Position numbers and translations under genes: made by a program
Source: Thermodesulfobacteriota bacterium
GTDB lineage: Bacteria; Desulfobacterota_D; UBA1144; Nemesobacterales; CSP1-2
Direction: 5' to 3'
Length of the DNA stretch: 64,000 nt
Assembly: GCA_035559815.1 (NCBI GenBank)
Contig: DATMAT010000023.1
Location: forward strand, 1 to 64,000
In this document: piece by piece, positions 12,095 to 23,884 of the stretch
How the letters are laid out: each line of letters opens with the position of its first letter
Position numbering within the stretch: the stretch's first letter is position 1
The notes under the pieces: generated by a model
Told to the model about the DNA's origin: nothing
The model's database searches: none
What the model saw: the letters and a program-made list of their open reading frames with translations, nothing else

Positions 12095-13276
12095 GTGATA
12101 AAAGCAGGGGCAGGATGCTCGACTAACCAGGACAGCGTTCAAGCAGCAATAGAGGCTGCTTCTCAAGCAATGGAGCTGGGAGGGTTGAATAAGGCCGATT
12201 GGGCTCTGGTGTTCTCAACCTTTCCTCATCGCGCCAGGTACCGGGAGATTTTGACAAAGGTATCCGAGGTCGCCCAAACGGTAAGCATAGCTGGGTGCAG
12301 TGCCGTAGGTGTTCTCTCTAATTCTTCGGAGATAGAAGGAGACCCGGGGGTGGTGGTCCTGGCCGTGTCCTCGGATACGATGCAGGGTACTCCATTACTA
12401 GTGCGCCATTCCGGAGACGGTGGTCTTAAAACCGGAATAGAAATCGGAGAGCAATTGCTTTCTATCCAGGGCGGGAACAGACTTCTTACCCTTTTTCCCG
12501 ACCCTTTTAACATACACCCGGAGCTTCTTCTTAGAGGGGTCGAGTCTAGATTGGGAGAGATACCGGTGGTAGGTGCTGCTGCTTCTGAGCATCCGGCTAT
12601 GGGTGAGACCTATGAATTCTGCGGGGACCTAGTTTCACCGGGGGCGGTTTCCGGGCTTTTTCTCCGGGGGAACTTCGGGCATAGGATCGGAATCACCCAG
12701 GGCTGTCAACCGGTGGGATTGCCATGCACTATTACCAAGGCGGAGACAAACATTATTTTTGAGCTCGACGGTCGCCCTGCCTTCGAAGTCTTGAAAGAGT
12801 CTATTCCGGCAAGCATACGTGAGAATCCAAGAGAGATCATGCGTCTTGTTTTTGCCGCATTCCCTCTAGACCCGGAAGAAAAAGAGATAAAAGGCGGGGA
12901 TTATCTGGTGAGAAACCTGCTCGGGTTTAATCCGGATACCGGGATTATCGGGGTTGCCGAGAATGTAAGGGAGGGACAGGTTATGAGCTTCACTCTCCGC
13001 CATCCTACCATGGCTCGCGAGGACTTGAAGCAGATGCTCGAGCGTTTGCTGTCTTCGAGCCAGCCCGATAAGCGATTTAAGTTTGGTTTCTACTTCAACT
13101 GCTGTGCTAGGGGCTCGTCCCTCTACGGCTATCAGGGGATCGACACCGCTTACATCACACAGGCATTAGGGGAGGTGCCGATAGTAGGCTTTTTCGGGAA
13201 TTCCGAGTTGGCCCCGCTCAGGCAAACGAATTATCTGTTTACCTATACCGGCGTGCTGGTATTAATTTCGGAATAG
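12095..13276 (+). CDS. FIST domain protein
   Basis: 393 residues made of a FIST N domain (about 30-220; VSIAGCSAVGVLS, LLTLFPDPFN, PVVGAAASEHPAMGETYEF) and a FIST C domain (about 225-370; GRPAFEVLKESI, GYLVRN-type GGDYLVRNLLGF, FNCCARGSSLYG, PIVGFFGNSELAP). FIST domains are thought to sense small molecules, possibly amino acids, and are often fused to signalling modules; here no output domain is attached. It starts at GTG with GAGG eleven bases upstream. The following lipoprotein gene begins 20 bases after its stop, so they may be co-transcribed. Confidence 0.88.
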   Translation: MIKAGAGCSTNQDSVQAAIEAASQAMELGGLNKADWALVFSTFPHRARYREILTKVSEVAQTVSIAGCSAVGVLSNSSEIEGDPGVVVLAVSSDTMQGTPLLVRHSGDGGLKTGIEIGEQLLSIQGGNRLLTLFPDPFNIHPELLLRGVESRLGEIPVVGAAASEHPAMGETYEFCGDLVSPGAVSGLFLRGNFGHRIGITQGCQPVGLPCTITKAETNIIFELDGRPAFEVLKESIPASIRENPREIMRLVFAAFPLDPEEKEIKGGDYLVRNLLGFNPDTGIIGVAENVREGQVMSFTLRHPTMAREDLKQMLERLLSSSQPDKRFKFGFYFNCCARGSSLYGYQGIDTAYITQALGEVPIVGFFGNSELAPLRQTNYLFTYTGVLVLISE

Positions 13277-16239: not shown

Positions 16240-17535
16240 TTGAGAATAATCCGATTAAAAAAAAATAACCTGGCCCAGAAATTAAAAGGGCTGAGAGGAG
16301 AGTCAAAGCTCTTTGATCCCGGTGTTGAGTCAGCGGTAAAAAAAATAGTCGAAGCTGTCAGGAAGGACGGCGATAGAGCCCTATTTAAATTCACTAAAAA
16401 GTTTGACAAGGTCGAGCTATCCACCAAAACGGTCAAGGTTTCCACTAGGGAAGTTGAAGAGGCGAAAGCAAAGGTCTCCCCGGAGATAAAATCCTCTCTT
16501 ACTGTTGCCGCTAGCAGAATACATTTCTACCAGCAGATGAAACTCCCGCAGGAAAAAACGTTTACCGATTCCCTGGGGAACGAACTGGGATGGCTGCTAA
16601 GGCCTCTGGAAAGGGTAGGTGTTTATATTCCTGGGGGTAAGGCTGCTTATCCTTCCACCGTTCTCATGACGGCCATTCCGGCAAAGGTAGCCGGCGTAGA
16701 AGAGGTAGTATTGGTTTCCCCTTGTCCCCGTGGGGAGGTTAATCCGGTGGTTCTGGTCGCTGCGTCCATGGCTGGGGTGGATGTGATTTATAAGGTCGGC
16801 GGAGCACAGGCGATTTCCGCCCTGGCTTACGGAACAGAATCCATTCCGAAGGTGGACAAGATAGTGGGCCCGGGAAACATCTATGTCACCATTGCCAAGA
16901 AATTGGTCTTTGGAGAGGTGGACATCGACATGATTGCCGGACCCAGCGAGGTCTTGATAGTCTCCGATGGAAGCACTCCGCCCGGGTGGATAGCGGCCGA
17001 TCTTCTGGCTCAGGCAGAGCACGATGAGATGGCTGTTCCCATCCTGGTCACCGATTCGTCCGAATTTGCAGACGAGGTGAAGAAAGAGATATCAAAGAGA
17101 TTAAAGACCTTGGAAAGAAGGGAGATCGCCAAAGAAGCGGTGAGGAATCAAGGGAAGATTTTCGTGGTTGATAGCATGGAGGATGCCGTTTCTGCTGTTA
17201 ACGCTATAGCTCCCGAACACCTGGAGTTATGTGTAGAGAATCCTAAGTCTATTCTTCCCGGGATAAAACATGCCGGGGCGATTTTCCTGGGAGGGATGTC
17301 CACAGAGGCTTTCGGCGACTATGTTGCCGGCCCTAGTCACGTGCTTCCGACCGGCGGGGCGGCCCGGTTCTCCTCGCCCTTGAGCGTTTATGATTTTCTC
17401 AGGATGCCCAGCGTCATTTCGGTCTCAGAGAGCGGATTCAAGGAACTAGAGCAATCTGTCACCAGGCTTGCATATAGCGAGGGGCTTGAGGCTCATGCCT
17501 TATCGGTTAAAGCAAGGTTTGAGAATCGCTCATGA
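16240..17535 (+). CDS. hisD: histidinol dehydrogenase
   Basis: Catalyses the last two steps of histidine synthesis, histidinol to histidine, with NAD and zinc. 431 residues, the usual length. Signatures: PLERVGVYIPGGKAAYPSTVLM, KVGGAQAISALAYGT, KIVGPGNIYVTIAKK, DMIAGPSEVLI, LLAQAEHDE (zinc and catalytic region) and NAIAPEHLEL. I keep the TTG start at 16240 since MRIIRL is a usual beginning and no better start exists. There is no Shine-Dalgarno, but a promoter lies directly upstream. hisC follows about 0.8 kb downstream, with vapBC between. Confidence 0.95.
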   Translation: MRIIRLKKNNLAQKLKGLRGESKLFDPGVESAVKKIVEAVRKDGDRALFKFTKKFDKVELSTKTVKVSTREVEEAKAKVSPEIKSSLTVAASRIHFYQQMKLPQEKTFTDSLGNELGWLLRPLERVGVYIPGGKAAYPSTVLMTAIPAKVAGVEEVVLVSPCPRGEVNPVVLVAASMAGVDVIYKVGGAQAISALAYGTESIPKVDKIVGPGNIYVTIAKKLVFGEVDIDMIAGPSEVLIVSDGSTPPGWIAADLLAQAEHDEMAVPILVTDSSEFADEVKKEISKRLKTLERREIAKEAVRNQGKIFVVDSMEDAVSAVNAIAPEHLELCVENPKSILPGIKHAGAIFLGGMSTEAFGDYVAGPSHVLPTGGAARFSSPLSVYDFLRMPSVISVSESGFKELEQSVTRLAYSEGLEAHALSVKARFENRS

Positions 17536-17583: not shown

Positions 17584-17612
17584 TTGACATATATATGTCA
17601 GTATGTCATATT
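17584..17612 (+). promoter_or_regulatory. vapBC promoter with overlapping palindromic operator
   Basis: TTGACA (17584-17589), 17 bases, CATATT (17607-17612). A perfect palindrome, TGACATATATATGTCA (17585-17600), overlaps the -35 box, and another TATGTCA half-site follows at 17602-17608. This is a fitting site for autoregulation by a ribbon-helix-helix antitoxin. The -10 box ends six bases before the ATG at 17619. Confidence 0.55.
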
Positions 17613-17618
17613 TGCAAT

Positions 17619-17900
17619 ATGGAGAAAACCACTATATATCTCAGCGAAGAGATAAAAGAACACCTACTGGATTTGGCTGCTAAGATGAGCAAAAGGGAGA
17701 GAAAACGAGTTACCATGACCGATATAATAAGGGAAGCTCTCAAAGAATACTTGAGAAAAAGAGGGGTAAAGATAGATAGCAAGAAGGAAATCACTAGGAG
17801 AATGCTTTCCACCAGGGGAGCGCTGGACAGCGAAGATTTTGAAAAAAGGGTTCGTGAGGTGAAGGAATCATTCTCGGGATGGAAAATCCGGTCTGCATAG
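17619..17900 (+). CDS. vapB: VapB-like ribbon-helix-helix antitoxin
   Basis: 93 residues from the ATG at 17619. The N-terminal MEKTTIYLSEEIKEHLLDLAAKM is the beta strand and first helix of a ribbon-helix-helix DNA-binding fold. VTMTDIIREALKEYLRKRG forms the second helix. The charged C-terminal half (ITRRMLSTRGALDSEDFEKRVREVK) would wrap the toxin. I prefer this start to the ATG at 17595, since that one lies in the operator palindrome and upstream of the predicted transcript start. The gene overlaps vapC by 22 bases. Confidence 0.8.
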   Translation: MEKTTIYLSEEIKEHLLDLAAKMSKRERKRVTMTDIIREALKEYLRKRGVKIDSKKEITRRMLSTRGALDSEDFEKRVREVKESFSGWKIRSA

Positions 17901-18268
17901 ATACCGACATAATAATAGACCACCTGAGGGGACGATTACCCGGGGCTCAGCTCTTCGCCGATATCGTTACGCGACAGGTCCCATACACCACCTGCATTTC
18001 CCAGTTTGAGCTTTTCTGCGGTGCAAACACACCTAAGGAAAGAGAAATAATAACCGAATGTCTCCTGGGGTTTAAAGTTCTTCCTTTTGACCAGTCAAGT
18101 AGCGATGAGGCGGCAAGAATTTATGTAGAGCTGAAAAGGAAGGGGCAATTGATCGGAGTAAGGGATATCTTGATTGCCGGGATAGCTAAGGTGAATAATC
18201 TAAGAATCGCTACCGGGAACCGGAAAGACTTTGGCAGGATAAAGGGACTCTCAATGTGGAGCGAATGA
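17879..18268 (+). CDS. vapC: VapC-like PIN-domain ribonuclease toxin
   Basis: 129 residues, a single PIN domain, usual for VapC toxins that cleave RNA. The acidic metal-binding residues are in place: Asp8 in CIDTDIIIDHLRG, Glu44 in SQFELFCGA, Asp96 in GVRDILIAGIA, and Asp117 in NRKDFGRIKGL. It overlaps the antitoxin gene, so the two are translated together. The pair sits between hisD and hisC, where no toxin-antitoxin is needed for the pathway, and is probably acquired. Confidence 0.88.
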   Translation: MENPVCIDTDIIIDHLRGRLPGAQLFADIVTRQVPYTTCISQFELFCGANTPKEREIITECLLGFKVLPFDQSSSDEAARIYVELKRKGQLIGVRDILIAGIAKVNNLRIATGNRKDFGRIKGLSMWSE

Positions 18269-18319
18269 TTTTCCTAGGGGCTGGGTTTATAAAATTAAAT
18301 ACATCAAGGATAAATAACT

Positions 18320-19696
18320 GTGGAATTAAGATGTTCATTCTGCAATATTCTATCTGAAGAAACGGAAGCAATTGTCCAGAAAGAAGAATCTTCAATCTGT
18401 GCGGATTGTCTTAACCTGGTCAAGGAGATAGTGGATGAATTCAGCATGGGCCAGGTATTTGAGGGGAGAGGAAGGTGCTCTTTTTGTAAAAAGGAGCACG
18501 GCGGAGAAAGGATGGTTTTCCAGGGAGAGAAAGCGCGGATTTGTAATCAGTGCATAGTGGAGATCGAGCAGGAAATGAAGAATGTAAAAAGGGATATTGC
18601 CAAGATCCCGGCGAAAACAAAAAATCAGGGTCCAGTTTCCGCGAAATCTAGGGTTAGGGAGGGTGTAAGGGAGCTTTCGCCGTATTCAGTGCCTCTTTTT
18701 CATTGCCGGGTCAAGCTTGACGGAAACGAGAGCCCTTTCCGGCTGCCTGACGTGGTATTGAAGAGGGTCCTAAGAGAGATAGGTGAAATACCGGTCAACA
18801 GATATCCGGACCCGGATGCCACCGTCCTCCGGGAAAGGATTTCCAGCATGGCTGGTTTTCCCTCCGATGGTATTCTCGTGGGGAATGGCTCGGATGAGCT
18901 TATAGAAATGCTCATGAGGACTTTTTCCGGCCACACCGGGAGGGTGCTCTATCCGGTCCCCACCTTTTCCATGTTCAGGATAATCGGTATTTCTCTTGGT
19001 CTAGATCAAATTCCGGTCGACCTGGACAGCCGGTTTGACATAGATATCAAGGCAACGCTCCGGGAGATAAGGAGGAAAAATCCGGATTTGATTTTTCTGG
19101 CCACGCCTAATAATCCCACCGGAAACTCATTTTCCGATGACCGGATTCTGGAGATTCTAAAGAACTCCGCGGGCATAGTGGTCGTGGACGAGGCTTATAG
19201 CGATTTCTCCGGGAAAACCTTTCTTCCGTTTATAAGGGAATACGAGAACCTCATGATCCTGAGGACGATGTCCAAAGTCGGTTTTGCCGGAATAAGGGTG
19301 GGAATACTGTTCGGTAGGAGCGACCTGGTAGGCGAGGTCAATAAAGTGCGTCTTCCCTATAACGTGAACTCTCTCAGCCAAAGAATAGCAGAGGTGGTAT
19401 TGGAGAACTCTGCTTTTGTGAAGGAGAATGTCCAGTTGATAATAAGGGAAAGAGAGAGGGTGTATAGAGGACTAAAAGTCATACCTGGAATAGAGGCTTT
19501 CCCCAGCGATGCTAATTTCATTCTATTCCGGGTGAAGGATGCGGATAAGGTTTTTGGCGAATTGATAAAAAGGGGAGTGCTCATTAGGAATTTCAATTCT
19601 CCGGGGAGGCTGGAGAATTGCCTTCGGGTTACCATCGGAACGCCCGAAGAGAATGACGAGTTTCTAGAGGCATTAGCTAAAGTCGTTTCTTCTTAA
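18320..19696 (+). CDS. hisC: histidinol-phosphate aminotransferase with two N-terminal ClpX-type zinc fingers
   Basis: 458 residues, about 100 longer than normal HisC. Residues ~120-458 are a complete class I/II PLP aminotransferase: KLDGNESPF, RYPDPDATVLRERIS, GILVGNGSDELIEML, ATPNNPTGN, VVDEAYSDF, and RTMSKVGFAGIRVG with the PLP-binding Lys319. Residues 1-90 hold two C4 zinc fingers like that of ClpX: C5-x2-C8 with C27-x2-C30, and C53-x2-C56 with C75-x2-C78, both in the CSFC...ICxxC style. A Lys-rich linker (about 88-112) joins them. AAGGA lies ten bases before the GTG start, and no in-frame start is visible at the HisC boundary, so the fusion seems real. The zinc-finger role is unknown; protein contacts or dimerisation are possible. 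Confidence 0.9.
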   Translation: MELRCSFCNILSEETEAIVQKEESSICADCLNLVKEIVDEFSMGQVFEGRGRCSFCKKEHGGERMVFQGEKARICNQCIVEIEQEMKNVKRDIAKIPAKTKNQGPVSAKSRVREGVRELSPYSVPLFHCRVKLDGNESPFRLPDVVLKRVLREIGEIPVNRYPDPDATVLRERISSMAGFPSDGILVGNGSDELIEMLMRTFSGHTGRVLYPVPTFSMFRIIGISLGLDQIPVDLDSRFDIDIKATLREIRRKNPDLIFLATPNNPTGNSFSDDRILEILKNSAGIVVVDEAYSDFSGKTFLPFIREYENLMILRTMSKVGFAGIRVGILFGRSDLVGEVNKVRLPYNVNSLSQRIAEVVLENSAFVKENVQLIIRERERVYRGLKVIPGIEAFPSDANFILFRVKDADKVFGELIKRGVLIRNFNSPGRLENCLRVTIGTPEENDEFLEALAKVVSS

Positions 19697-23287: not shown

Positions 23288-23884
23288 ATGCTGACATCAC
23301 CCGTTTTGGTCCTGAATCGTTATTTTGTACCGGTCACGGTAACAAATGTGAAGAGGGCCTTTATTATGCTCTATGGAGGAGTGGCCAAGGCGGTCGGAGG
23401 GGATTATAAAACCTTTGACTTTGAATCGTGGGCAGACATTTCATCGGTGAGAGATGAGGACGCAATTAAGACGGTCAGCCGGGTGATCAGAATTCCAAGG
23501 GTCATAATGCTCATAAGATATGACCGTATGCCCAGGAAAGAGGCGAAATTCAACCGCATCAACATCTTCAGGAGGGATGGGGGGATATGCCAGTATTGCG
23601 GTGAAAGGTTCCCCCGCTCAGAGCTGACTATAGACCATGTAATCCCCCGGTCTATCGGCGGCAAGAGCATATGGGAAAATGTAGTTTGTTGCTGTGTTGA
23701 TTGTAACCGGCGTAAGGGCGGGAGGACTCCCGACGAAGCCCGGATGAAGCTCATAACCAGGCCCAAAAAGCCCAATTGGGACCCGTTCTCTAATATTTAC
23801 ATAAAAGCGGTAAGGTATAAGGAGTGGGAGCCGTTTCTCAGTTTTGTCGACGTTTCTTACTGGAACGTCGAGCTTGAGGAGTAG
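23288..23884 (+). CDS. HNH endonuclease
   Basis: 198 residues. The N-terminal ~80 residues (VLVLNRYFVPVTVTNVKRAFIMLYGGVAKAV) are a conserved part of a widespread group of stand-alone HNH proteins. The nuclease domain reads ICQYCGERFPRSELTIDHVIPRS, then GGKSIWENVVCCCVDCNRRKG: two CxxC pairs for zinc and the DH...N...H core for the metal-dependent cut. This group is common as a chromosomal gene outside phages, with unknown physiological role. Confidence 0.9.
   Translation: MLTSPVLVLNRYFVPVTVTNVKRAFIMLYGGVAKAVGGDYKTFDFESWADISSVRDEDAIKTVSRVIRIPRVIMLIRYDRMPRKEAKFNRINIFRRDGGICQYCGERFPRSELTIDHVIPRSIGGKSIWENVVCCCVDCNRRKGGRTPDEARMKLITRPKKPNWDPFSNIYIKAVRYKEWEPFLSFVDVSYWNVELEE

Follow-up and report, generated by a model that had tools for sequence, protein, structure and literature searches.

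A histidinol-phosphate aminotransferase fused to tandem ClpX-type zinc fingers in one bacterial family

The window analyzed here, a stretch of 64,000 nucleotides from a Thermodesulfobacteriota bacterium, contains a hisC gene that encodes two ClpX-type zinc fingers ahead of histidinol-phosphate aminotransferase (HisC) (Table 1). The frame runs without interruption from a GTG to a TAA, with an AAGGA 9 nt upstream of the GTG. The upstream neighbor is hisD, and this adjacency is kept in relatives. A VapBC-like toxin–antitoxin pair lies between the two genes and outside the fusion; it is also present in one relative (G005) and absent from the other members of the family of uncultured bacteria to which the window's genome belongs (hereafter the host family). 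In these two genomes the hisDC operon is split by the inserted pair.

Table 1. Coordinates of the fusion gene, its parts and its upstream neighbors in the window, and of the module remnant in one relative.
Feature	Position	Strand	Basis or remark
hisD, histidinol dehydrogenase	16240..17535	+	TIGR00069, 542 bits
RHH antitoxin and PIN toxin pair (VapBC-like)	17595..18268	+	Pfam
Ribosome-binding site region, AAGGATAAATAACT, preceding the GTG	18302..18319	+	Sequence
hisC fusion gene, encoding two ClpX-type fingers in tandem and then HisC	18320..19696	+	458 aa, GTG start
Finger 1, residues 5-30 (C5, C8, C27, C30), then helix to residue 41	18332..18409	+	Pfam PF06689; AlphaFold hairpin and helix 28-41
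Finger 2, residues 53-78 (C53, C56, C75, C78), then helix 76-92	18476..18553	+	Pfam PF06689; Foldseek
Variable low-confidence linker, about residues 87-112	18578..18655	+	pLDDT, pN/pS, length variation
HisC domain, residues 113-458	18656..19693	+	TIGR01141; Foldseek
Finger-module relic in G003, between hisC and hisD	L070 7394-7604 (G003:C586)	-	

An earlier note on this DNA had placed a complete PLP-dependent aminotransferase of the HisC type behind the fingers, and the HisC model TIGR01141 bears this out: it matches residues 113-454 with 341.4 bits against a cut-off of 276.55, covers model positions 1-348 of 349, and scores 334-348 bits in relatives. Lys-319 (in the motif SKxGFA), which we take to be the PLP-binding lysine, and Asp-290, Tyr-293, Arg-326 and Arg-436, presumably further active-site residues, are invariant across 16 sequences. 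Unfused HisC genes at the equivalent syntenic position encode orthologs of this domain, and AlphaFold predicts a typical HisC for which the best solved Foldseek matches are 4r8d, 3cq5 and 3euc (E about 1e-35). Score, active-site residues and histidine-pathway context together identify the fusion protein, at the level of sequence, as a HisC. It shares with HisC proteins the complete domain, the solved fold and the operon with hisD, and differs from an ordinary HisC in about 110 additional N-terminal residues that carry the two fingers. Another HisC-like gene of this genome also passes the TIGR01141 cut-off and is flanked by genes that we recognize as pheA-like and tyrA-like; judging by gene position, this copy probably belongs to the aromatic pathway and the fused gene to the histidine pathway.

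The N-terminal segment contains two CxxC-x18-CxxC motifs, whose eight cysteines are exactly those named in the earlier note. Pfam assigns them to zf-C4_ClpX (PF06689; E=4.6e-11, 42.9 bits in two stretches), and each finger individually exceeds the gathering cut-off of 27 bits (28.7 and 30.3 bits); the fused relatives score 44-51 bits. Two non-overlapping finger motifs arose in 0 of 100,000 shuffles of the segment, and a profile search of the PDB with the fingers retrieved ClpX zinc-binding domains (ZBDs). In the AlphaFold models each finger is a hairpin followed by a helix. A two-finger model built on six sequences (mean pLDDT 76, pTM 0.63) was matched by Foldseek to the ClpX ZBD structures 2ds5, 2ds6 and 2ds8 at 0.7-0.8 Å over about 40 residues with a probability of 1.0; the short length of the domain limits the E values to about 0.02-0.1. 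The fingers are thus predicted to adopt the ClpX ZBD fold, and their C4 sites would be expected to bind zinc.

The fusion protein is nevertheless not a ClpX, since no match to an AAA+ unfoldase module with Walker motifs was found in it and the remainder is HisC; the ClpX-type finger ORF of the same genome sits elsewhere (G000:C8). Compared with the N-terminal domain of ClpX (PF06689; 1ovx, 2ds5-2ds8), the fused fingers have the same cysteine spacing and hairpin-helix fold, but they occur in tandem, without the AAA+ module, joined to a metabolic enzyme and strongly diverged in sequence. Nearly all comparisons between fused and ClpX fingers gave 6-17 identical residues out of 32, the one exception (20/32) being finger 2 of G004 against a ClpX finger from a distant genome, whereas the finger of ClpX itself is nearly invariant across the phylum.

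We compared the window's genome with six further genomes of the host family, five of which carry the fusion; the sixth is G003. The fusion is full-length and in frame in all five, at 60-68% identity, and the architecture spans the divergence of five genera. The proposal that HisC and two ClpX-type fingers form one protein is therefore fully supported, as a conserved fusion, and the suspicion that a frameshift or two separate genes lay behind it found no support: among relatives the segment is fused in frame, absent or, in G003, degenerate. All eight finger cysteines are invariant among the six fused genomes, as are about 20 other finger residues, including Arg-4, Ser-6, Phe-7, Leu-31, Leu-33, Glu-36, Ile-37, Glu-40 and Phe-41 around finger 1 and Gly-51, Ser-54, Phe-55, Glu-59, Arg-64, Val-66 and Phe-67 around finger 2. 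In most pairs pN/pS is about 0.2-0.5 in the fingers, which is near the 0.17-0.31 of the HisC domain, and about 0.5-1.2 in the linker; the closest pair, G006 and G002, has too few finger differences for a rate test. The finger module is under purifying selection. The linker varies in length between relatives and has a pLDDT below 50 at residues 91-103, a very low confidence that is expected of a flexible segment.

The fused relatives start at a TTG immediately before the first cysteine, with a Shine–Dalgarno-like stretch ahead of it. G001 lacks any ATG, GTG or TTG from residue 60 up to the KLDGNESPF motif; from a standard start, this genome can make its HisC only as a fusion with the fingers. 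The window gene is different from what had been stated for it, namely that no internal start is visible at the domain border: in-frame ATG or GTG codons occur at residues 65, 80, 86 and 124, and a shorter second product is therefore possible. These codons are not kept across all relatives.

In G003 the finger segment is recognizable but wrecked, with a TGA within finger 1, finger 2 deleted and the frame lost. The hisC frame reopens at an ATG inside the finger remnant, in another frame and with an AAGGAAG ahead of it, and the product still scores as a complete enzyme, which indicates that the module is dispensable for the enzyme. In a HisC tree, G003 pairs with the fused G004 (94/86), and the two fall inside the host-family group (82/97), a placement that is tentative because the tree is midpoint-rooted. 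The simplest account is a single gain of the finger segment, at the 5′ end of hisC, followed by a single loss, and the distribution makes this course of events probable.

Outside the host family the module was not found in the genomes searched. In other families of the order HisC begins where the linker ends, and in other families of the phylum HisC is unfused; in their oriented loci, no small gene ahead of hisC encodes a finger on its own. A double-finger profile searched against 58 genomes of the phylum found the fusion only in the host family and no double-finger module elsewhere. Among the matches listed for 387 genomes spread over bacteria, the same profile found no fusion outside the host family, and almost all finger matches were ClpX; the module was not found in plasmids either. 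A HisC search of the 387 genomes agreed, in that among the matches listed only those of the host family continue with high identity into the fingers, and a scan of a contig database returned the G005 record as the only close fused relative. Among the papers searched, none joins HisC, a zinc finger, ClpX and fusion; zf-C4_ClpX is mentioned in a single one, which deals with cyanobacterial sigma factors. The fusion is a new domain architecture made of known parts and kept by one family.

The searches also turned up other proteins. Longer or odd open frames with a finger were ClpX in those checked, except L076; another, L075, ends at a contig end. L076 (G242:C36) is a non-ClpX protein, about 182 aa long when counted from its ATG, with one N-terminal ClpX-type finger; unlike the fusion it has a single finger, its remainder is unrelated to HisC (a weak TPR match below the cut-off) and its genome is distant. 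Separately, HisC matches in open frames of 780-980 aa in G232, G286, G342, G121 and G132 are possibly other HisC fusions.

What the fingers might do is suggested by ClpX, whose ZBDs dimerize, hang on flexible linkers and serve as a platform for substrates and adaptors (PMC9035409, PMC7226468); the latter paper describes RssB docking and cross-linking of the ZBD dimer. Two ZBD-like fingers on a flexible linker fit a docking or dimerization handle best, and with moderate confidence we regard the module as a tethered, duplicated ClpX-ZBD-like unit of this kind on an otherwise ordinary HisC dimer, gained once in the family ancestor. Under this proposal, the complete HisC of a hisD-hisC operon in that ancestor would have acquired an N-terminal two-finger module in a single event, joined to the enzyme by a short flexible linker. 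The two fingers of one chain would probably pack as, or replace, the ZBD pair that two ClpX subunits form, and through the module the HisC dimer may be kept bound to a partner protein or a further HisC. A bolder version, possible but doubtful, is that a captured and duplicated ClpX docking domain physically couples histidine synthesis to ClpXP or to another pathway enzyme, with the ZBD pseudo-dimer acting as a general docking module outside ClpX. Of the functions put forward in the earlier note, the partner-binding tether stands as the best remaining explanation; ClpP-type proteolysis and a zinc supply shared with HisD have nothing beyond homology in their favor, and the divergence of the fingers and the loss in G003 stand against them.

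HisC is a dimer, and a dimer of the fusion protein would therefore carry four fingers. This number and the conserved C4 sites could point to a zinc module with a structural or regulatory role inside the enzyme, by stabilizing the dimer or by zinc or redox control through cysteine oxidation. Such a role seems unlikely, as a flexible, low-confidence linker separates the module from the enzyme and the HisC of G003 scores as complete without it.

Membership of the fingers in the ClpX ZBD family, by Pfam, PDB profile search and Foldseek, together with the dimerizing, adaptor-binding nature of that domain, raises a tether specific for ClpX, in which the fingers pair with the ClpX ZBD or compete for its adaptors and thereby deliver HisC to ClpXP or let it recruit ClpX. 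A ClpX finger is indeed present in the window's genome and in four of the five other fused genomes, the fifth, G005, having a possibly incomplete assembly. We still consider this quite unlikely. The divergence of the fused fingers from the near-invariant ClpX finger implies that the ClpX surface is not preserved, which weakens a link to ClpX or ClpP, and ClpX does not depend on the module, since the G003 lineage has lost the module but still has ClpX.

The confinement of the fusion to one family and its decay in G003 would also suit a tolerated passenger, a chance fusion that persists with weak or no function, but eight invariant cysteines and a low pN/pS over six divergent genomes make this distinctly improbable. 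Draft assemblies and a non-ATG start might suggest an assembly error, a false gene call or a frameshift joining two genes, which we reject as next to impossible because the identical in-frame fusion recurs in six separate genomes, one of them lacking an internal start.

The fusion shows that a metabolic enzyme unrelated to ClpX can carry the ClpX zinc-binding domain, and that the domain can persist there in duplicate under selection and be lost again. The fused HisC proteins, G003 with its decayed module and the unfused sister families form a natural comparison for the role of the ZBD outside ClpX, and this set bears on whether the ZBD is a general docking unit.

Two other genes of the window deserve mention. 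At 12095-13276 lies a gene for a sensory-domain protein with FIST N and FIST C domains and no visible output domain within the ORF. The gene order around hisC is conserved, and in the six further genomes, where it was read fully or partly, hisC keeps its place in the series hisD - hisC - lnt - lgt - HNH gene - tolB. The HNH gene of the window (23288-23884), which adjoins tolB, encodes a stand-alone HNH endonuclease-like protein of 198 aa; it is 64-79% identical in the relatives compared and has an HNH region similar to the one in Cas9d/IscB.
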